DNA of 50,179 bases from Gemmatimonadota bacterium. GTDB taxonomy: Bacteria > Gemmatimonadota > Gemmatimonadetes > Palauibacterales > KS3-K002. Of this stretch, positions 39,802-50,179 are shown piece by piece; position 1 is the first letter of the stretch; each line of letters starts with the position of its first letter. The stretch spans positions 1,618,432-1,668,610 of the forward strand of contig CP070722.1 in NCBI GenBank assembly GCA_020350785.1, given 5' to 3'. The translations under genes were made by a program, and so were the position numbers. Under the pieces are notes generated by a model, which saw nothing but the letters and a program-made list of their open reading frames with translations, was not told where the DNA came from and ran no database searches.

Positions 39802-40227
39802 ATGGCGCTACTTGAGAGAAAAAGTAAGGTCAGCGACGAAATCCCCACGGCCTCGATGGCGGATATCGCGTTCCTGCTCCTCATCTTCTTCCTGACGACG
39901 ACGGTTTTCGAAGAGGAGAAGGGCCTCCCGATCGTGCTGCCGGAGGCGTCGGCCGAAGAGGTGCAGGTGTCGCAGAGGAACATCATCCACTTCCTGATCA
40001 ACGAGGACGGGTCTGTCGTCATCAGGCGCGGTGAGAGCACTGCCGAGCAGGTGGTGGCCTACAGCGAGATCGAGGGGATCATGCGGCAAGAGATCGCCAA
40101 CAACCCCGAGATCATCGCGGCGGTGAAGACGGCCCCGGAGGCGCCCTACCGTCACATGATCAACGTGCTGGACGAGCTGCAATCGGCGGCGGCGCAGCGT
40201 ATCTCCTTGCAGCTCTGGGAGAGGTGA
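39802..40227 (+). CDS. exbD: ExbD/TolR-like protein, first copy
   Basis: 141 residues. Short cytoplasmic start, then SEIPTASMADIAFLLLIFFL-type helix (here DEIPTASMADIAFLLLIFFL) with the essential Asp in SMADIAF, which carries protons. A periplasmic domain of ExbD fold follows (HFLINEDGSVVIRRGES, EIIAAVKTAPEAPYRHMINV). It pairs with ExbB. A second, different ExbD gene follows after five bases; the two share the N-terminal helix but diverge in the periplasmic part. Confidence 0.94.
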   Translation: MALLERKSKVSDEIPTASMADIAFLLLIFFLTTTVFEEEKGLPIVLPEASAEEVQVSQRNIIHFLINEDGSVVIRRGESTAEQVVAYSEIEGIMRQEIANNPEIIAAVKTAPEAPYRHMINVLDELQSAAAQRISLQLWER

Positions 40228-40232
40228 GGTAA

Positions 40233-40682
40233 ATGGCCAAGAAGAGCGGTGGTTTTGAGCGCAAGTCGAAGGCGGCGAGTGAGATACCCACGGCCTCGAT
40301 GGCAGATATCGCCTTCCTTCTGCTCATCTTCTTCATGGTGTCCACGACTTTCCGGCGCGAGCAGCCGCGACACCTCGCGTTCCCGAAAGCCGAGGCGACC
40401 CAGAAGATGGACGAGAAGCGCAAGAACATTTTGCACCTGTGGCTCGAACCCGATGGGCTGGTGTATATTAATGATAGACTGGTCCCAATGGACTTGGTGG
40501 CGGAGACCGTGCTGCCGCTCTATCGGGAGAGCGACCGGCAGTTACTCGTGGCGATCCGCGGTGACCGGGACGTTCCGTACCGCTTCATCAACGCCGTGAC
40601 GGAGCAGCTGCGCCAGGCGAACGCGGTTCGTGTGTTCTTTCACACGGACCTCGAGAGTCGAGTGACTCGCGCGAGGAGGTAA
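40233..40682 (+). CDS. exbD2: ExbD/TolR-like protein, second copy
   Basis: 149 residues. The same helix (SEIPTASMADIAFLLLIFFM) with the conserved Asp is preceded by a slightly longer basic start. The periplasmic domain differs from the first copy (HLWLEPDGLVYINDRLVPMD, LLVAIRGDRDVPYRFINAV). Tandem, diverged ExbD genes after one ExbB are frequent in Bacteroidota and Gemmatimonadota and probably form a mixed channel. The TonB gene follows after six bases. Confidence 0.94.
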   Translation: MAKKSGGFERKSKAASEIPTASMADIAFLLLIFFMVSTTFRREQPRHLAFPKAEATQKMDEKRKNILHLWLEPDGLVYINDRLVPMDLVAETVLPLYRESDRQLLVAIRGDRDVPYRFINAVTEQLRQANAVRVFFHTDLESRVTRARR

Positions 40683-40688
40683 GAGGCT

Positions 40689-41378
40689 ATGGTAAACGAG
40701 ATGGGCGCTGGCAGGGGACAGCAGGGGGCGTTTCGCCTGACCGCCAACGACGTGTTCAAGAAGACGGCCGGCCCCTGGCTGTGGGGCGGAGTCATGCTGG
40801 CCACGGTTTTCCACTTCGGTTTGTTCGCTTTCTTCCCCGAGCTGAGGGCATCAGATGTCAGTTTCGGGGTGAGCGAGTTCGAGGCAATCGAGCTGCCGCC
40901 CGAGGTCGAAATCCCGCCACCCCCCGAGCAGATCTCCCGGCCAGCGGTTCCGGTGGTCTCTACGACGGCGCTGGAGGAGGACATCACGATCGCGCCGACG
41001 ACTTTCGAGGAGAACCCGGTCGAGAATCTGCCACCGCCGCCCAGCGATGCGAGCCGGCTGGGCGATCAGCCCGTCTTCACACCCTATACGGTAAAGCCGG
41101 AAATCAAGGACCGGCGCACGGCCCTGCGAATCGTCGAGGGCAACTACCCGAAGTTGCTCAAGGACGCGGGTGTCGGCGGGACGGTGAACGTCTGGGTGTT
41201 CATCGACACGAACGGCATCGTGAAGAACGCACAGGTTCAAAAGGGCTCGGGAAATAGGGGCCTTGATGAGGCAGCCCTGAAGTCGGCCCGTGAGTTTGTG
41301 TTCACACCGGCCCTGAACAGGGACAAACGAGTACCCGTCTGGGTGTCTATTCCGATTACTTTCTCCGTAAAGGGATAG
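40689..41378 (+). CDS. tonB: TonB energy transducer
   Basis: 229 residues. One N-terminal transmembrane helix (about 37-54, GGVMLATVFHFGLFAFF), then a Pro/Glu-rich spacer (LPPEVEIPPPPEQISRP, NLPPPPSD) that spans the periplasm. The C-terminal TonB domain (about 145-229) has GNYPKLLKDAGVGGTVNVW, FIDTNGIVKNAQV, GLDEAALKSAREFVFTPALN and VWVSIPITFSV. It passes proton-motive energy from ExbB/ExbD to outer-membrane receptors. No TonB-dependent receptor is encoded in the window. A strong hairpin ends the operon. Confidence 0.94.
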   Translation: MVNEMGAGRGQQGAFRLTANDVFKKTAGPWLWGGVMLATVFHFGLFAFFPELRASDVSFGVSEFEAIELPPEVEIPPPPEQISRPAVPVVSTTALEEDITIAPTTFEENPVENLPPPPSDASRLGDQPVFTPYTVKPEIKDRRTALRIVEGNYPKLLKDAGVGGTVNVWVFIDTNGIVKNAQVQKGSGNRGLDEAALKSAREFVFTPALNRDKRVPVWVSIPITFSVKG

Positions 41379-41402
41379 GTCGACCGACCTCGACTCGACG
41401 AG

Positions 41403-41440
41403 AGGGGCCCGGCCATCGCCGAGAGCGATGCCGGGCCCCT
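41403..41440 (+). terminator. Strong hairpin terminator after tonB
   Basis: AGGGGCCCGGCCATCGC (41403-41419) pairs with GCGATGCCGGGCCCCT (41425-41440) with one bulged base and a five-base loop, giving about 16 bp. TCGCTTATGT follows, a weak T-rich tail. It closes the tilS-to-tonB gene series. Confidence 0.75.
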
Positions 41441-41492
41441 TCGCTTATGTCGGGTTGCTCCGGGTAGGCGCGGCGGGTAAGTTTCGCCGGTT

Positions 41493-42188
41493 ATGTACTT
41501 TGAGCGACTGAAGCTCGCCCTGCCCGCGGTCCGCGAGCGTATCGACCGGGCATGCCGACGCGTCGGTCGCGCGGGCGCGGAAGCGGTAGTCATCGTGGCG
41601 GTGACCAAGGGGCATTCGCTCGAGGCGCTGCGTGCCGCCGCTGAAGTGGGCCTGGAGACGATCGGCGAGAACCGGGTTCAGGAGGCGAGACAGAAGTACG
41701 AAGCCGCTGGCGACCTGGGTTTGCGCTGGCACCTGGTTGGCCATCTGCAACGGAACAAGGTGCGCCAGGCGTTGAAGATATTCGAGTTGATCCACTCGGT
41801 GGACTCGCTGCGGTTGGGGCTGGCCATCGACCGCGAGGCCGCGAAGCTTGGCCGGCGCGCGGCGGTCCTTGTGCAGGTCAACGCTTCGGGCGAGGGCGCG
41901 AAGTATGGGCTTCCTGTGGACGAAGCCTTGTCGGTCGCGAGCGGTCTCTGCGAGATGGACAACCTCCGGGTCGTTGGTGTGATGACGATGGCGCCCTTTG
42001 TCAGCGATGAGGAGATCCTGCGGAGGACGTTTCGGCGAACGCGTCGACTCTATGACGAGTGTCGGGAGCATCTGGTGAAGTTCGAGGCCCGGCACTTATC
42101 GATGGGTATGACGAATGACTTCGAGATTGCCGTAGAGGAGGGCAGCACGATGCTGCGGCTCGGCACGGTGCTGTTCGGGGAGCGGTGA
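41493..42188 (+). CDS. yggS: YggS/PLPBP-family PLP homeostasis protein
   Basis: 231 residues. The PLP-binding Lys lies in IVAVTKGHS (about residue 38). GLETIGENRVQEARQKYE, WHLVGHLQRNKVRQAL, LIHSVDSLRLG, VLVQVNASGEGAKYGL and LSMGMTNDFEIAVEEGSTMLRLG complete the family pattern. It is a monomeric alanine-racemase-like barrel that balances free pyridoxal phosphate, without known catalysis. No clear ribosome binding site precedes the ATG. It starts the run to divIVA, as in many bacteria. Confidence 0.95.
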   Translation: MYFERLKLALPAVRERIDRACRRVGRAGAEAVVIVAVTKGHSLEALRAAAEVGLETIGENRVQEARQKYEAAGDLGLRWHLVGHLQRNKVRQALKIFELIHSVDSLRLGLAIDREAAKLGRRAAVLVQVNASGEGAKYGLPVDEALSVASGLCEMDNLRVVGVMTMAPFVSDEEILRRTFRRTRRLYDECREHLVKFEARHLSMGMTNDFEIAVEEGSTMLRLGTVLFGER

Positions 42189-42190
42189 CG

Positions 42191-42763
42191 ATGATAGACC
42201 TGACGCCACTCGATGTTCGCAAGAAGAAGGGCGACTTCAGGCGCGTGGTTCGAGGCTACGATCCGGAGTTGGTCGATGACTTTCTGGATATGGTCGCCGA
42301 GCGACTTGAGGAGCTCGTCAAACAGAATGTAGCCCTAACCGAGCGAGCGGAGCATCTGCAAGAGCAGGTCGCATCCTATCGCGAGCGAGAGAGGGCGCTT
42401 AACGAGGCCTTGGTCACCGCGCAGCAGCTGCGATCCGAGGCGCAGGCGCAGGCCGACCGGGAGGCAGAGCTGGTGAGGCGTGAGGCGCAAAGCCAGGCGG
42501 AGCGCATTATCGAAGAGGGCCAGCGTTCTTTTCGTGAGATCGCCCGCGAGATCGAGGCGCTGCAGACGCGGCGTCATCAGTTTGCCAGGGCCTTCCGCAC
42601 GCTTCTAGAGAGGTATATCGCGGAGCTAGAGGTCGAGGAGTCCAGACCTGGGGAAAGTGCGAGACCGCGAACCACGGGTCCGGCGGCCCCTTCCTCGTCG
42701 GAGGGCGAGCAGTGGCTTTCGTCGCTTGCCAGAGATCCCGATCAGGGAGATGAGCCCGGGTGA
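42191..42763 (+). CDS. divIVA: DivIVA-domain coiled-coil protein
   Basis: 190 residues from ATG 42191 (GGGGAG eight bases upstream; GTG 42185 is in frame and overlaps the yggS stop). The N-terminal DivIVA membrane-binding domain (IDLTPLDVRKKKGDFRRVV, GYDPELVDDFLDMVAERLEE) is followed by a long coiled coil (about 35-140, rich in Glu, Arg, Ala, Gln) and a Pro/Ser-rich tail. In Gram-positives it recruits division and polar-growth proteins to curved membrane; in this Gram-negative setting its role is unknown. It overlaps the next gene by four bases. Confidence 0.92.
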   Translation: MIDLTPLDVRKKKGDFRRVVRGYDPELVDDFLDMVAERLEELVKQNVALTERAEHLQEQVASYRERERALNEALVTAQQLRSEAQAQADREAELVRREAQSQAERIIEEGQRSFREIAREIEALQTRRHQFARAFRTLLERYIAELEVEESRPGESARPRTTGPAAPSSSEGEQWLSSLARDPDQGDEPG

Positions 42764-43599
42764 CGCAGGGGGGTGCAGAGGGACTGTTGGGCCGCGTACG
42801 GGCCGCCGCCGAGACGATCCGGTCACGCAGCGGCCTGCGGCCGCGCGTGGCCATAATTCTGGGCACCGGCCTAGGCGGCCTGGTCGCCGAGATTGAGGCG
42901 GAGGCGGTAATCCCATATGAGGAGATTCCCGGCTTCTCCGTGCCCACGGTGGAGAGTCACAGTGGCCGCTTGCTATTGGGCCGATTGTCCGGTCAGCCGG
43001 TAGTTGCGCTGCAGGGCCGTTTCCATCGCTACGAGGGCTACTCTCTGCAGCAGGTCACGTTCCCGGTGCGAGTGATGCGCGAGCTGGGTGCGGATATCCT
43101 GATCGTGTCCAATGCCTGCGGAGGAATGAACCCGATGTGGGACGTCGGCGATCTCATGCTGATCGCCGACCACATCAACCTGATCGGTGACAACCCGTTG
43201 ATCGGCCCCAACCCGGACGAGTTGGGCCCGCGGTTCCCGGATATGTCGGAACCGTACGATCTGGAGCTGCAGCGTTTGGCCGCCGAGGTTGCCACACGAG
43301 AGCGGTTGATTCTGCGGCGCGGTGTGTACGTGGCTGTCGCCGGGCCCAATCTCGAGACGCGGGCCGAGTACCGTTTCCTGAGGTTGATCGGCGCCGATGT
43401 GGTCGGAATGTCGACGGTGCCGGAGGTGATTGTGGCGCGGCATGCCGGGATGCGCGTGCTTGGGGTTTCGATCATCACCGATAGCTGCCTGCCTGACGCG
43501 TTACGACCGGCGAGTGTGGAGGAGATCATCAGAGTGGCGGGTGAGGCGGAACCGAGACTGACGACGTTGATAAAGGAGGTCGTGGCCCGCTTGGGCTAG
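42760..43599 (+). CDS. punA: Purine nucleoside phosphorylase (class I, trimeric type)
   Basis: 279 residues from GTG 42760, overlapping the divIVA stop (GTGA). Motifs: AIILGTGLGGLVAEIE (phosphate loop), PGFSVPTVESHSGRLLLGR, GRFHRYEGYS, VSNACGGMNP, LIADHINLIGDNPL, AVAGPNLETRAEYRFLRLIG and DVVGMSTVPEVIVARH. They define the PNP/MTAP family, of the guanosine/inosine type. It splits purine nucleosides with phosphate to base and ribose-1-phosphate, providing substrate for Hpt. Between DivIVA and IleS. Confidence 0.94.
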   Translation: MTQGGAEGLLGRVRAAAETIRSRSGLRPRVAIILGTGLGGLVAEIEAEAVIPYEEIPGFSVPTVESHSGRLLLGRLSGQPVVALQGRFHRYEGYSLQQVTFPVRVMRELGADILIVSNACGGMNPMWDVGDLMLIADHINLIGDNPLIGPNPDELGPRFPDMSEPYDLELQRLAAEVATRERLILRRGVYVAVAGPNLETRAEYRFLRLIGADVVGMSTVPEVIVARHAGMRVLGVSIITDSCLPDALRPASVEEIIRVAGEAEPRLTTLIKEVVARLG

Positions 43600-43608
43600 A
43601 GGTTGGAG

Positions 43609-46600
43609 ATGGTCCAGAAGCGATACCGCGAGATACCCGAGGATCCGACGGAGCTGGAGGAAGACGTCCTCGAGGCCTGGGAAAGGGAGGGGACATTCCT
43701 GCGCTCTCTGGAGGCGACGCGAGACGGCGAGCCCTTCGTGTTCTACGAGGGGCCGCCTACGGCGAACGGTCGCCCGGGTATTCATCACGTCTTCTCGCGG
43801 ACGATCAAGGACACCTTTTGCCGTTACCAGACGATGCTGGGGCGTTCGGTCACGCGCATTGCGGGGTGGGATACTCACGGGCTGCCCGTCGAGGTTGAAG
43901 CAGAGAAAGCATTGGGAATTTCGGGCAAGCCCGAGATCGAGAAGATCGGCGTGGAACGTTTCACGCAGGTCAGCCGGGAACACATCTTCACATACAAAGA
44001 GGACTGGGAAAAGCTCTCACAACGTATCGGGTTCTGGCTCGACTACTCTCGCGCCTACATCACGTGTTCGGCGGAGTACGTCGAAAGCGTGTGGTGGGCA
44101 TTGAAGCAGTTTCACGACAGAGGCCTGCTTTATCGAGGTCACAAAGTCGTCCCGTTCTGTCCGCGCTGTGGTACCGGTTTGTCGAGCCATGAGGTCGCGT
44201 TGGGTTACGAGGAGGTGAGCGAGCCGGCGGTAACGGTCAAGTTCCCGATCGAGGGCCGGCCGGGCGAGTTCCTTCTGGCGTGGACGACGACGCCCTGGAC
44301 ATTACCGGGCAATGTGGCGCTGGCTGTTAGTCCTATGGTGGCCTATGTGAAGGCTCGCCAGGATGGGGAGACCTTCTACGTGGCCGAGCGGCTGGCCGAG
44401 GACGTGCTGGGCGAGGGATTTACGGTGCTCGAGGTCATCCCCGGGGGCAAGCTAGCGGGCCTTCGCTACGAGCCGCCGTTTCCCTACCTGATGGATGCGG
44501 TTGGCCCGAGCGATGGCTGGTATGTCGCCACTGCGGATTTCGTCACTGCGGATGAGGGCACTGGCATCGTGCACACCGCGGTGATGTACGGTCAAGACGA
44601 CTATGATCTCGGGATGAGGCTCGGCTTGCCCGCCTACCATCTGGTGGATGAGGAAGGTCGTTTCACGCACGAGGTGAAACCTTGGGCGGGTATGTTCGTC
44701 AAGGATGCGGATCCCGGCATCATCGAGGCGTTGCGCGAATCGGGCCGTCTGCTGAGAGCTGAGGATCACGCCCACACGTACCCGTTCTGCTGGCGGTGTC
44801 AGACGCCGCTGCTGTACTACGCCCGCGATTCTTGGTACCTGCGCACTACGGCGGTGAAATCGGAGCTACTCGCGAACAACAATTCGGTGTCTTGGCATCC
44901 GCCGGAGATCGGTCGCGGCCGGATGGCGGAATGGCTGGAGAACAACGTTGACTGGGCGCTGTCGCGGGACCGCTATTGGGGGACGCCGCTTCCCGTCTGG
45001 GTTTGCGAGCAAGATGCGGCGCATGTCGAGGTCATCGGCAGCTACGCCGAGCTAGCGCAGCGGGCGGGCATCTCGATAGGGGATGGGTTCGATCCACACA
45101 AGCCGCATATCGACGCCGTGCGTTGGCAGTGTAGCGCCTGTGGCGGCGTGATGAAGCGGACGCCGGAAGTGATCGATGCCTGGTTCGATTCCGGCTCCAT
45201 GCCGTTTGCCCAGTGGCACTACCCGATGGAAAGCGAGGAGCGCTTCGGGCAGCAGTTCCCCGCCGACTTCATCGCTGAAGGAATCGACCAGACGCGGGGC
45301 TGGTTCTACTCGCTGCTGGCGATCTCCACAGTGCTTTTCGGGCGGGCGCCGTACAGGAGCGTCGTCGTAAACGATCTCGTGCTCGATGCCGAGGGCGTCA
45401 AGATGTCGAAGTCGCGGGGAAATGTGGTCGACCCCTGGGAAGCGATTCGCGAATTCGGGGCCGATGCGATCCGCCACTATCTGCTCTCGGTGAGCAACCC
45501 GTGGATCCCGAAGCGGCACGATCCCAAGGCCATAGCGGAAGTCAGGCGCAGATTCTTCGGCACGTTGCTGGCGACTTATCGTTTCTTCGAGATCTATGCG
45601 AACCTGGAGAACTGGTCGCCGGAGTCGCGGCCGCCGCTCAGCGGGCGACCTGCCTTGGATCGCTGGCTGCTGTCGAGGCTGGACGGATTGATCGAGTACT
45701 GTCGGGCGGAGCTGGGCGCCTACAACGTCACGCCCGCAGTGCGGCGGATCGGGGACTTTGTCGTCGATGATTTGTCGAACTGGTACGTCCGCCGTTCGCG
45801 GGCGCGTTTTTGGGGCACGCGATCGGCGAGCCGCGACACGATGGAGGCGGCGTTCGCGACACTGTGGGAAGCGCTGGTCGGCGTGTGCCGCCTACTGGCG
45901 CCGACCGCGCCTTTGGTCAGCGATTGGATCCACCGCGAGTTGCTGGGCGGGAGTTCGGTTCACGTCGAGCGGTATCCCCAGCCGGCGGGGTGCCGCGACG
46001 AGAGGCTGGAGGCCGAAATCGGGTTGGCCCGCCGGCTTGTCGGTCTGGGCCGAGCCGCCCGCGAGGTAGCGGGGATCCGAGTGCGGCAGCCCCTGCATCG
46101 ACTGCTGGCGTCGGGTGCCTCCGGCCAGCTAAAGGCGATGAGCGATGAGGTGCTGGAGCTCGTGCGCGAGGAACTCAATGTGCGGCGGATCTCGTTCATC
46201 GATGACGCCGCCGAGCTGGTCAGCTATCGCGCGGAAGCCAATTTCGCGGTCCTCGGCCCCCAATTCGGCTCTGACGCGCCGGCCGTCGCCGCGGCGCTGA
46301 GGCGGTTGGACAGCGAGCGGCTGGCGGCCTGGCGACTGGGAGGCGGGGAGTTGGTGGTGGAGCTGGAAGGCCGACGGTTGGAGGTGCCGGGGTCGGGGTT
46401 CTCGCTGGTCCAGGAGGCGCGAGAGGATCTGGTGGTGCAAGCCGAAGGCGGCCTGGTGGTGGCTCTGGACACGGCCCTGGACGAGGGACTTCGCCAGGAG
46501 GGGACGGCCCGGGAGCTGGTGAACCGAATCCAACGGTTGCGGCGCGAGGCCGGCCTGCAACTGGACGATCGGATCAGTTTGGGTATCTTTGGGGCTCCCG

Positions 46601-46764
46601 AGATCGCCTCGGCCGTGGAGGCTCACCGGGAGTACATAGCCAGCGAGGTGCTTGCGGTCGAGGTGGTGGTTGACCGGCAGCCGTCTACGGCAGACGGCTT
46701 CGAGCACGTGCGAGAGGTCAAGCTGGACGGGGGTGCGGTCGTCATCGGCATGCAGGTGAGGTGA
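43609..46764 (+). CDS. ileS: Isoleucyl-tRNA synthetase, type 2 with permuted HIGH motif
   Basis: 1051 residues from ATG 43609 (AGAGG six bases upstream; TTG 43603 is in frame). It has the class Ia layout: the Rossmann start (FYEGPPTANGRP), an editing domain (LAWTTTPWTLPGNVAL, DEGTGIVHTAVMYGQDDY), the zinc-type Cys pairs (CPRCG, CWRCQ), KMSKS with Lys598 (KMSKSRGNVVDP) and an anticodon-binding C-terminal part of type 2 length. At the HIGH position the sequence is PGIHHV: Gly57-Ile58-His59-His60 in place of His-x-Gly-His. The first and third residues are exchanged. It charges tRNA-Ile. It follows punA after nine bases. Confidence 0.96.
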   Translation: MVQKRYREIPEDPTELEEDVLEAWEREGTFLRSLEATRDGEPFVFYEGPPTANGRPGIHHVFSRTIKDTFCRYQTMLGRSVTRIAGWDTHGLPVEVEAEKALGISGKPEIEKIGVERFTQVSREHIFTYKEDWEKLSQRIGFWLDYSRAYITCSAEYVESVWWALKQFHDRGLLYRGHKVVPFCPRCGTGLSSHEVALGYEEVSEPAVTVKFPIEGRPGEFLLAWTTTPWTLPGNVALAVSPMVAYVKARQDGETFYVAERLAEDVLGEGFTVLEVIPGGKLAGLRYEPPFPYLMDAVGPSDGWYVATADFVTADEGTGIVHTAVMYGQDDYDLGMRLGLPAYHLVDEEGRFTHEVKPWAGMFVKDADPGIIEALRESGRLLRAEDHAHTYPFCWRCQTPLLYYARDSWYLRTTAVKSELLANNNSVSWHPPEIGRGRMAEWLENNVDWALSRDRYWGTPLPVWVCEQDAAHVEVIGSYAELAQRAGISIGDGFDPHKPHIDAVRWQCSACGGVMKRTPEVIDAWFDSGSMPFAQWHYPMESEERFGQQFPADFIAEGIDQTRGWFYSLLAISTVLFGRAPYRSVVVNDLVLDAEGVKMSKSRGNVVDPWEAIREFGADAIRHYLLSVSNPWIPKRHDPKAIAEVRRRFFGTLLATYRFFEIYANLENWSPESRPPLSGRPALDRWLLSRLDGLIEYCRAELGAYNVTPAVRRIGDFVVDDLSNWYVRRSRARFWGTRSASRDTMEAAFATLWEALVGVCRLLAPTAPLVSDWIHRELLGGSSVHVERYPQPAGCRDERLEAEIGLARRLVGLGRAAREVAGIRVRQPLHRLLASGASGQLKAMSDEVLELVREELNVRRISFIDDAAELVSYRAEANFAVLGPQFGSDAPAVAAALRRLDSERLAAWRLGGGELVVELEGRRLEVPGSGFSLVQEAREDLVVQAEGGLVVALDTALDEGLRQEGTARELVNRIQRLRREAGLQLDDRISLGIFGAPEIASAVEAHREYIASEVLAVEVVVDRQPSTADGFEHVREVKLDGGAVVIGMQVR

Positions 46765-46780
46765 TAGCGGGGTAAAGCCG

Positions 46781-46800
46781 AGCGCCGTTTTTGCGGCGCT
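46781..46800 (+). terminator. Small hairpin between ileS and the DksA-like gene
   Basis: AGCGCCG (46781-46787), loop TTTTTG, CGGCGCT (46794-46800). The stem is 7 bp and no T-run follows, so full termination is unlikely; it may be partial or mark mRNA processing. The downstream ribosome binding site lies ten bases after it. Confidence 0.4.
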
Positions 46801-46822
46801 TGGGGAATTGGGGGATATAGAT

Positions 46823-47209
46823 ATGGCACTGACGAAAGAAGATCTGACGCATTTCGAGAAGCGCCTTCTGGAAGAGCGGGCCAAGATCGTGAAGCAGTTG
46901 GCCCAGTTCGACAAATCGTTCTCGGACACGCTTCAGGGCTCTGATGGTGATCTGTCGGCCTACAGTTTCCACATGGCGGATCAGGGAACCGACGCGATGG
47001 AGCGTGAGAAGGCCTTTCTCTTTGCCAGCAAAGAGGGCCGATTCCTGTTCCACATCGACGAGGCGCTCCGTCGGATCTACAGGAATCCCAGCGAGTACGG
47101 GGTCTGTCAGGAATGTGGTGAGGAGATCGGTTTCGAACGGCTCGACGCCTTGCCGCACGCTCGCCTTTGTATCAAGTGCAAGAACCGGGAGGAAAACGGT
47201 GGCAGCTGA
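46823..47209 (+). CDS. TraR/DksA-family zinc-finger transcription regulator
   Basis: 128 residues from ATG 46823 with GGGGGA upstream. The N-terminal 75 residues are a coiled coil (LTKEDLTHFEKRLLEERAKI). The C-terminal four-Cys zinc finger is intact (GVCQECGEEIG and ARLCIKCKNREE). DksA proteins enter the RNA polymerase secondary channel and alter initiation, with ppGpp. The coiled-coil tip carries DQGTDAMEREKAF, in which the tip Asp and Ala typical of DksA are not clearly aligned, so it may be a DksA-like protein with different activity. It overlaps lspA by 11 bases. Confidence 0.92.
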   Translation: MALTKEDLTHFEKRLLEERAKIVKQLAQFDKSFSDTLQGSDGDLSAYSFHMADQGTDAMEREKAFLFASKEGRFLFHIDEALRRIYRNPSEYGVCQECGEEIGFERLDALPHARLCIKCKNREENGGS

Positions 47210-47765
47210 CGGCTATGCGAGCGCCGGGGAGGTGACGGGGCGAGCGGATCTCGCGCAAGCGGCGGCCCGGGGAAAGCTGACGGCGTTCGCGGGCACGGCC
47301 GGTGTCGTGTTGGCGATCGACATGTTCACAAAGCTGCTTGTACAACAGACGCTGCACATTGCCGAGTCGATTCCCGTATTTGGCGATTTCTTCCGTTTGA
47401 CCTATATCTACAACCCTGGCGCGGCCTTCGGGTTGCACCTGGGCCCTCATTCCCGCTTCATATTTCTGGGCTTGGCGTTCGTGGCTTTAGGTGTCCTCGT
47501 CGTCATGTACCGCCACACTCCCGCGGCGGACCGCCTGAGACTGTTCGCGATCGGTGCCATTGCTGGCGGCGCTCTGGGCAATGTGGTCGACCGCATCCGG
47601 TCGGTCAGGGGTGTGGTCGACTTTCTCGATTTCGGCTTCGGTGATCTCCGCTGGCCCGTCTTCAACTTCGCCGACACTGCAGTGACGATCGGAGCGCTGC
47701 TATTGCTCGCTTCGCTGTGGGCAGAGGATCAACGGCGCGATCAAGAAGAAGGTGGAACGCGTTGA
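47199..47765 (+). CDS. lspA: Lipoprotein signal peptidase
   Basis: 188 residues from GTG 47199, which has GGGAGG six bases upstream. The frame is open further upstream, but only as an overlap of the DksA-like gene. Four transmembrane helices. Family motifs: LAIDMFTKLLV with the first conserved Asp, YIYNPGAAFG, GGALGNVVDRIRSVRGVVDF with the catalytic Asp, and FNFADTAVTIGALLL with the second. It cuts signal peptides of prolipoproteins before the lipidated Cys, including those of the lipoproteins predicted elsewhere in this window. The end overlaps rluD by 14 bases. Confidence 0.95.
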   Translation: MAADGYASAGEVTGRADLAQAAARGKLTAFAGTAGVVLAIDMFTKLLVQQTLHIAESIPVFGDFFRLTYIYNPGAAFGLHLGPHSRFIFLGLAFVALGVLVVMYRHTPAADRLRLFAIGAIAGGALGNVVDRIRSVRGVVDFLDFGFGDLRWPVFNFADTAVTIGALLLLASLWAEDQRRDQEEGGTR

Positions 47766-48720
47766 AGGTCCCGAGGGAGAGATAATCCTCCGGATCGAGG
47801 TCGAAGAGACCACCGGGGACAGAATTGATCGTTTTCTTGCCGACAGACTTCCGCTATCACGCTCTCTCATCGCGAACTTGATCGAACGAGGCCACGTACG
47901 CGTCGGCGATCGCACCACCCGGAAGAGCTACATTCCCGTTCCAGGTGACGTCATCGGGGTCGAGGTTCCACCTCCTGAGCCGGTGGACATCGTCCCGGAG
48001 GCGATCGCTGTCGAGATCATCTACCAAGACGACGGATTTCTGGTGGTCAACAAGCCTCCCGGGATGGTGGTTCATCCGGCTCCGGGCCATGCGCACGGCA
48101 CTCTGCTGAACGCCCTCCTCCATCAAGTCGGAGCTCTATCGCCGATCGGCGGCGCGCGGCGACCCGGAGTCATACATCGGTTGGACAAGGACACGTCAGG
48201 ACTGGTCATCGTGGCCAAGCAGGAGGGGGTACACCGGCGCCTGGCGGAGGCTTTGGCCCGTCGCGAGATCGTGCGCCGGTATCTTGCGGCCAGCTGGGGG
48301 CACCTGCCGGAGGATGAACTGCTCATCGAAGCCGATGTGGGCCGCCACCGGCGAGATCGCAAGCGCATGGCCGTCGTTCCGGGCAGTAGGCCGGCGCTGA
48401 CCGAGATCGAACGGCTGGAGCGCTGGCGGGCGGCGGATTTCTTGCGTGTTCGATTGCACACGGGTCGAACGCATCAGATTCGCGTCCATCTGAGACACAT
48501 CGGGCATCCGGTGGTGGGTGACCGGCAGTACGGGGCGGGTTGGGAGCGTGGACTGGAAGGGAAATGGCCCAGAGAGCTGGCGGCTCGGGTGCCGCGGCAG
48601 TTCCTGCATGCTGCGGAGCTGCACTTCCATCACCCCGACTCGGGCCGGCTGCTGGAGTTTGAGGTGCCCCTGCCGGGGGACCTGGCGGATGTGGCCGATT
48701 GGGCCCGCCGGACAAGTTGA
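47752..48720 (+). CDS. rluD: 23S rRNA pseudouridine synthase, RluD-like
   Basis: 322 residues from GTG 47752. An S4 domain (DRIDRFLADRLPLSRSLIAN) leads, then the RluA/RluD catalytic domain with VIHRLDKDTSGLVIVAK and catalytic Asp145, then GRTHQIRVHLRHIGHPVVGD. It makes pseudouridines in 23S rRNA helix 69 if it is true RluD; RluA/RluC type activity is possible. lspA-rluD is a common order. A promoter for the next genes begins within its stop codon. Confidence 0.95.
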   Translation: MERVEGPEGEIILRIEVEETTGDRIDRFLADRLPLSRSLIANLIERGHVRVGDRTTRKSYIPVPGDVIGVEVPPPEPVDIVPEAIAVEIIYQDDGFLVVNKPPGMVVHPAPGHAHGTLLNALLHQVGALSPIGGARRPGVIHRLDKDTSGLVIVAKQEGVHRRLAEALARREIVRRYLAASWGHLPEDELLIEADVGRHRRDRKRMAVVPGSRPALTEIERLERWRAADFLRVRLHTGRTHQIRVHLRHIGHPVVGDRQYGAGWERGLEGKWPRELAARVPRQFLHAAELHFHHPDSGRLLEFEVPLPGDLADVADWARRTS

Positions 48721-48745
48721 CCGGTGCGTTAGTCGTTATTATACT
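48717..48745 (+). promoter_or_regulatory. Sigma-70 promoter overlapping the rluD stop codon
   Basis: TTGACC (48717-48722), a spacer of exactly 17 bases, then TATACT (48740-48745). This is a near-consensus promoter. Its -35 box contains the TGA stop of rluD. It should drive the small frame at 48800 and cheY, with a start near 48752. Confidence 0.75.
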
Positions 48746-48799
48746 TGTGTTTCCGCGTGTGACTGCACCGCGACCCCTCCCCCCAAGATTCCACGACTC

Positions 48800-48970
48800 A
48801 TGGGTTTGATGATTTCGGTGTCGAACAACGCCGGTTGTCCTCTCCTCGTCGCGGCCGGCGAGAATTCCTTCGCGGTCGACGCTCTCCGGTTAGAGAGATC
48901 CGGGGAGTTCTTCCGTAGAGCGTTGGCCGAGTTTGACGAAGTCGGTAGATCATCCCAACAGGGACAGTAG
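48800..48970 (+). pseudogene. Possible CheW remnant, 56 codons
   Basis: A frame from ATG 48800 to TAG 48968. The part CPLLVAAGENSFAVDALRLE resembles the first strands of CheW coupling proteins, which in related genomes (from memory) lie just here. The remaining 30 residues (FFRRALAEFDEVGRSSQQGQ) do not fit a CheW core, and the whole is a third of normal CheW length (about 150). No ribosome binding site is visible. I interpret it as a truncated or internally deleted cheW; a genuine small gene or chance resemblance is possible. Confidence 0.4.
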
Positions 48971-48986
48971 TGCGCGTGGAGGAAAG

Positions 48987-49349
48987 ATGGGCCACACGGT
49001 GTTGATAGTGGACGATGCGATATTCATGCGCACGATGATCGCCGACATCTTGAAGGGGGCAGGCTTCGAGGTCGTCGGCGAAGCTTCTTCGGGGCTGGAG
49101 GCAGTTGAGAGGTATAGAGAGTTGCGGCCCGACATGGTGACGATGGACATCGTGATGCCGGACATGGGCGGGATAGATGCGGTGCGAGAGATCATCAAGG
49201 AGGATCCCGAGGCGCGAATCCTGATGTGCAGTGCCATGGGTCAGCAAGGGCTCGTGATCGAGGCAATTCAGGCAGGCGCTCGCGATTTCGTCGCTAAACC
49301 ATTTCAGCCTTCGCGGGTGCTCGAAGCGGTGCAGCGGTTGATGGGATGA
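48987..49349 (+). CDS. cheY: CheY-like single-domain response regulator
   Basis: 120 residues from ATG 48987, with GGAGG four bases upstream (the frame extends upstream to 48933 but without signal). It is a complete receiver domain: acidic pair in LIVDDAIFMR, phosphoacceptor Asp in MVTMDIVMPDMGG, Ser in MCSAMGQQG and Lys in FVAKPFQPSRV. IFMRTMIADIL and the AMGQQ loop are typical of chemotaxis CheY in phyla with CheC/CheD-type systems. It should be phosphorylated by CheA, but only the first 37 codons of a CheA-like gene remain directly after it. It overlaps that frame by four bases (ATGA). Confidence 0.93.
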   Translation: MGHTVLIVDDAIFMRTMIADILKGAGFEVVGEASSGLEAVERYRELRPDMVTMDIVMPDMGGIDAVREIIKEDPEARILMCSAMGQQGLVIEAIQAGARDFVAKPFQPSRVLEAVQRLMG

Positions 49350-49459
49350 GCGAAAAGGGAAAGTACGTGGAGCAGTTCGCAGGGGAGGCGCGCGGTCATC
49401 TGGCAGAGCAGGGAAGTGCTCTCGTCGATCATGAAAGCTACAGTTCACTCCGAGGGTGA
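49346..49459 (+). pseudogene. 5' fragment of a CheA-like histidine kinase gene
   Basis: A 37-codon frame starting at an ATGA overlap with the cheY stop and ending at TGA 49457-49459. The translation KYVEQFAGEARGHLAEQGSA is the typical first helix of the CheA P1 (Hpt) domain (compare the general pattern YVELFLxESREHLxxxNxxLLxLE). It stops before the phosphorylated His. From about codon 30 the sequence is shared, in another frame, with the start of the TPR gene. I read this as a deletion that removed the remaining cheA and joined its start to the next gene. Confidence 0.6.
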
Positions 49460-50179
49460 TCTCCGCGTTCTTCGCGCTCTGGCGCAACGCGTCGATCCAG
49501 GCGATGCGGGCGCCTGCAACAACCTTGGCGTGGTCTTCTATCAGCAGGGGCTGTTCGATGAGGCGATCGAGCAGTTCCGTCGCGCACTGTCTATCGATGG
49601 CAGGATGGAGGTGGCGCGACGGAATCTCGACATAGCGTACAATCGGACAGGCTATTACGAGCGGCGAATTGGCCAGTTGGCGGCCAGGCTGCAGGCTGAC
49701 CCGAGCGACGCTGAGACACGTCTGGGTTTGGCGGAAGCCTATGCCAGCATGGGGCGCTGGGATCAGGCGATCGGGCACTACGAGAAGTTGATAGGCCGCA
49801 AGCCGGATGACGTGCGGCTATTGGTCAAGTTGGGATGCGCGGAGAAGAGCAGGGGTGAGCTAAGGGCTGCGGTCCACTGGTTCGAGCGGGCGCGGGAACT
49901 GGCTCCGGACCGTCCTCATATTTACTACGAACTAGGCGAGGTACTTAACGACCAAGGCTTGAAAGAAGAGGCCATTGCGCGCCTCCGGAAGGCCCTCAGC
50001 CTCAACTCCTCCTTCGCGGAGGCCCACCATCTACTCAGCTTAGTCTACAGTGATGTCGGCGACCGGGTCCGGGCAGCGGAGCACGCTCGTCGGGCAGAGC
50101 AGCTCAGCCCAGCGGCGACGGAGGGGCAATCGAACCTATCGCTGGACAGGTACAGGCGCGCCAGGTATGCGGAGCTTGC
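49431..50179 (+). CDS. TPR-repeat protein, cut by the right window edge
   Basis: From ATG 49431 the frame is open to the end of the window (249 codons visible). TPR units are clear: NNLGVVFYQQGLFDEAIEQF, LGLAEAYASMGRWDQAIGHY, YYELGEVLNDQGLKEEAIAR and AHHLLSLVYSDVGDRVRAAE, each of about 34 residues. The final visible part, SLDRYRRARYAEL, leads out of the repeats. There is no signal peptide. TPR proteins hold partners; none can be named. The start lies inside the cheA-like fragment, and there is no good ribosome binding site, so translation may be coupled to that frame. Confidence 0.85.
   Translation, partial: MKATVHSEGDLRVLRALAQRVDPGDAGACNNLGVVFYQQGLFDEAIEQFRRALSIDGRMEVARRNLDIAYNRTGYYERRIGQLAARLQADPSDAETRLGLAEAYASMGRWDQAIGHYEKLIGRKPDDVRLLVKLGCAEKSRGELRAAVHWFERARELAPDRPHIYYELGEVLNDQGLKEEAIARLRKALSLNSSFAEAHHLLSLVYSDVGDRVRAAEHARRAEQLSPAATEGQSNLSLDRYRRARYAEL

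Follow-up and report, generated by a model that had tools for sequence, protein, structure and literature searches.

The window, a stretch of 50,179 nucleotides from a Gemmatimonadota chromosome, carries an ileS gene (43609..46764, + strand) that opens with an ATG at 43609, has an in-frame TTG at 43603 and ends with a stop codon closing at 46764. Its product of 1,051 aa scores 851.5 bits against the isoleucyl-tRNA synthetase (IleRS) model TIGR00392, above the curated cut-off of 621.4, and contains the Pfam domains tRNA-synt_1, Anticodon_1 and DUF5915. The neighbouring genes all have housekeeping functions and all lie on the + strand, which bears out the setting proposed in the preliminary description. 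Domain matches identify a purine nucleoside phosphorylase (PNP_UDP_1; 42760..43599), a DksA/TraR zinc-finger protein (46808..47209), the lipoprotein signal peptidase lspA (Peptidase_A8; 47031..47765) and a RluD-type pseudouridine synthase (47752..48720); a YggS-like PLP protein and DivIVA are further members of the cluster. The lspA coordinate 47031 was chosen arbitrarily, in frame, within the open frame 46944-47765, and the true start probably lies after 47209. A search for riboswitch or T-box control upstream returned no Rfam match within 40000-50179.

The distinguishing feature of this enzyme is its class I signature motif. At 43777..43788 (+ strand), the codons GGT ATT CAT CAC, in the ileS frame, encode Gly57-Ile58-His59-His60 within the context EGPPTANGRPGIHHVFSRTIK. 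In blastp and phmmer alignments, GIHH falls exactly on the HVGH/GVHH of Priestia megaterium IleRS2 (PmIleRS2) and on the HIGH of many relatives, and no other HxGH segment takes its place. Codons and alignment thus agree with the earlier reading of the HIGH position as GIHH, with the first and third residues exchanged. The KMSKS loop motif, previously called normal, is indeed intact at residues 598-602 (45400..45414, + strand). With Gly first and His third, GIHH carries the residues that define the G/AxHH group of type 2 enzymes, and, as far as sequence can tell, the protein has every feature by which that group is recognized.

The editing domain keeps its conserved stretches. Its threonine-rich part, WTTTPWTLPGNVALAV, is intact at 44281..44328 (+ strand), and a stretch with the conserved aspartate, HTAVMYGQDDY, lies at 44572..44604 (+ strand). 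Because both the WTTTPWT segment and the conserved aspartate stretch are retained, proofreading by this domain is expected. Most IleRS read HxAPxxGxDD in the second stretch, where the window enzyme has AV for the usual AP; this AV-M change is common to the whole family and to part of the order.

Several lines of comparison place the enzyme in type 2 (IleRS2). Its four best PDB matches are the PmIleRS2 series 8c8w, 8c8v, 8c8u and 8c9d, and PmIleRS2 entries score 959-970 bits versus 332-340 bits for PmIleRS1 entries. Opposite the PGIHH of the window protein, the first match, 8c8w, reads PGVHH, so that the comparison with solved structures gives the same placement of the motif, and the next two matches read PHVGH. 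Because the sequence matches a solved IleRS2, the fold is taken as decided. The C-terminal Cys4 cluster, which an IleRS1 of the same phylum has at 905/925, is absent: CxxC occurs only at 184, 394 and 508, and the last Cys is residue 795 of 1051. Thr51, in the segment PTANG (43759..43761, + strand), presumably stands opposite Tyr59 of E. coli IleRS, as placed through the E. coli PPYANG sequence. The lack of a C-terminal Cys4 cluster and the replacement of E. coli Tyr59 by Phe or Thr are marks of eukaryote-like IleRS (PMC4861432). In addition, KMSKS is preceded by NDL instead of the HGF that contacts mupirocin in IleRS1 (PMC4861432).

The swapped motif itself has been described. Of 163 bacterial IleRS2, 86 carry G/AxHH, and motif swaps in both directions showed it to be the cause of hyper-resistance to mupirocin (Brkic et al., 2023; PMC10485003); the type 2 subset with GxHH and extreme resistance, named in the preliminary description, is thereby found in the literature. 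For example, conversion of the natural ALHH of Deinococcus radiodurans IleRS2 (DrIleRS2) to HVGH lowered the mupirocin Ki from 6.6 mM to 8.1 µM, an 823-fold fall, and introduction of GVHH raised it about 200-430-fold, from 0.20 to 35 µM in TtIleRS2 and from 1.08 to 460 µM in PmIleRS2 (PMC10485003). Since engineered GVHH gives Ki values of no more than 35-460 µM, the level of resistance depends on the scaffold. In natural bearers of the motif, activation efficiency is little affected (PMC10485003), and the Streptomyces griseus IleRS, one such bearer, has a Ki of 10 mM (PMC4861432).

Like the G/AxHH enzymes of D. radiodurans and S. griseus (PMC10485003), the window IleRS is of type 2, has the first and third HxGH residues exchanged and keeps a normal KMSKS. 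It differs from them in its second residue, Ile, and in coming from another phylum, one that the main text of PMC10485003 does not name. The resemblance to the GVHH form of PmIleRS2 is also close, 8c8w aligning over residues 9-1011 with an E-value of 1e-290. However, GVHH in 8c8w is engineered, at a cost in kcat and Km, and the natural PmIleRS2 motif is HVGH (the identity of the 8c8w series as PmIleRS2 and the engineered status of GVHH are taken from PMC10485003), whereas the GIHH described here is natural. MupA and MupB of staphylococcal plasmids (NF000257 and NF000258) also belong to the IleRS2 family, but the window protein reaches only 815 and 799 bits against these models, far below the 1900-bit cut-off, and is 38% identical to MupA. 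As it is a single chromosomal copy and not a mobile second one, identification as MupA or MupB was rejected.

If the window enzyme behaves like its published counterparts, as we infer by analogy, His59 of the swapped motif would stand in for the first His of HIGH in the transition state, because the tip of helix α1 would be shifted, as in other IleRS2, so that the bulky third residue would leave the adenine undisturbed. Mupirocin binding would push the motif back, and His59 would then clash with the drug; both the catalytic role of the third His and this clash have been described for other IleRS2 (PMC10485003). Inhibition would be expected to need mupirocin concentrations in the high micromolar to millimolar range, and resistance in the millimolar range is likely by the same analogy.

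Within the one-contig genome (4,094,397 bases), only one locus exceeds the ileS cut-off. The next-best matches are ORFs of 933, 822 and 505 residues, which by size and motif are taken for a ValRS, a LeuRS and one more synthetase of class I. The suggestion that this is the only IleRS of the locus therefore extends to the whole genome, in which the search found no second ileS. All close relatives of the protein carry GxHH: GIHH recurs in six further genomes from its family, at 69-74% identity, and the order mostly has GVHH. In an even sample of 298 Gemmatimonadota genomes, the pattern PTANGxPGxHH matched in 277, and the remaining 21 were inspected singly. Seven of these read PTSNARPGLHH, with PTSNA for PTANG, bringing the GxHH total to 284 of 298. 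Three have an HxGH IleRS2 from another clade (G073, G128 and G170), three have an IleRS1 (G129, G201 and G307), and eight could not be judged, four genes being cut before the motif and four assemblies lacking a usable ileS. Thus, GxHH is the ordinary, phylum-wide state in Gemmatimonadota and is not unusual there. Given its recurrence in the family and across the phylum, GIHH was rejected as a sequencing slip. No point reversion of GxHH was seen among the sampled genomes, the readable genes without it being whole-gene replacements. A canonical-motif pattern matched in six genomes; four of these matches are methionyl-tRNA synthetases by motif context (TSALPYANGPIHLGH), the fifth (G201) is an IleRS1, and the sixth (G040) has the same DNA motif at a contig end.

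Taken together, the window ileS is the sole, vertically inherited, chromosomal housekeeping IleRS2 and not an acquired resistance gene, and the probability that it works as such by the swapped-motif mechanism is put at about 90%. Mupirocin producers such as P. fluorescens do carry a resistant IleRS2 (PMC4861432), which would fit a second ileS, acquired or serving self-protection, in a mupirocin-type producer; yet this gene is the only ileS in the genome, and the IleRS tree follows the phylum. A ketosynthase search of the genome as assembled gave only two strong matches, open frames of 444 and 476 aa and thus of single-enzyme size, with no mupirocin-type modular polyketide cluster, on which basis producer self-resistance was rejected; this origin is extremely improbable. 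Equally remote is a true signature motif elsewhere in the protein or a non-catalytic paralogue, for which no supporting point was found: the alignment is unambiguous, KMSKS and the editing residues are intact, and the genome is without any other IleRS.

Why the motif is retained is a separate matter, and the readings below are compatible with the mechanism given above. GxHH and HxGH occupy large clades in a tree of 99 proteins, with 3 changes versus about 17 under shuffled labels, and 2 versus about 15 with IleRS1 excluded and the motif masked; because the proteins were chosen for their similarity to the window IleRS, these counts are no estimate for all IleRS2. GxHH is also fixed in the sampled Cloacimonadota, Peptoniphilus and gut Firmicutes. 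Anaerobes such as Cloacimonadota and Peptoniphilus are unlikely to encounter mupirocin. Its fixation in Cloacimonadota and gut Firmicutes fits an ancient alternative of a neutral or structural kind as well as it fits a resistance adaptation. That GxHH is such an alternative of the IleRS2 scaffold, fixed early by descent, with mupirocin resistance a by-product and not the reason for its retention, is given even odds. Its fixation in nearly the whole phylum and occurrence across many others, including gut and sediment anaerobes, speak for it, as does the barely changed activation efficiency of natural bearers (PMC10485003), but the effect on the drug is very large and the motif was gained at least twice in evolution (PMC10485003). 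Mupirocin selection is a candidate cause. A further proposal, that GxHH is the ancestral, catalytically preferred state of the IleRS2 group of Gemmatimonadota, Zixibacteria, Ignavibacteria, Cloacimonadota and others, no adaptation to resistance, and changes only by whole-gene replacement, never by point reversion, is tentative and rather doubtful.

The GIHH enzyme is a further member of an already published variant and adds no new mechanism. The survey confirms a published and striking departure from the signature of class I synthetases and finds it fixed in Gemmatimonadota. Organisms with a GxHH IleRS2 are probably naturally mupirocin-resistant, a property that could aid selective isolation.

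The departures from GxHH within the phylum have features of their own. The IleRS2 of G073, G128 and G170 (L131, L132 and L133), from two families, read PFANGLPHYGH, an HxGH form of a distant clade that has apparently replaced the GxHH enzyme. In families f9 and f10, the GxHH IleRS2 has been lost and an IleRS1 is present instead, with AMHKS for KMSKS in every copy read (L135, L136, L137, L163, L164 and L166; G201, G129, G307 and G313). In the G129 IleRS1 (L136:1600-1650, the same as L162), the signature is HLGT (codon ACG) for HLGH; because its congener G311 (L165) and genus g85 (L163 and L164) read HLGH, this is taken as a change confined to one genome or as an error in the sequence.
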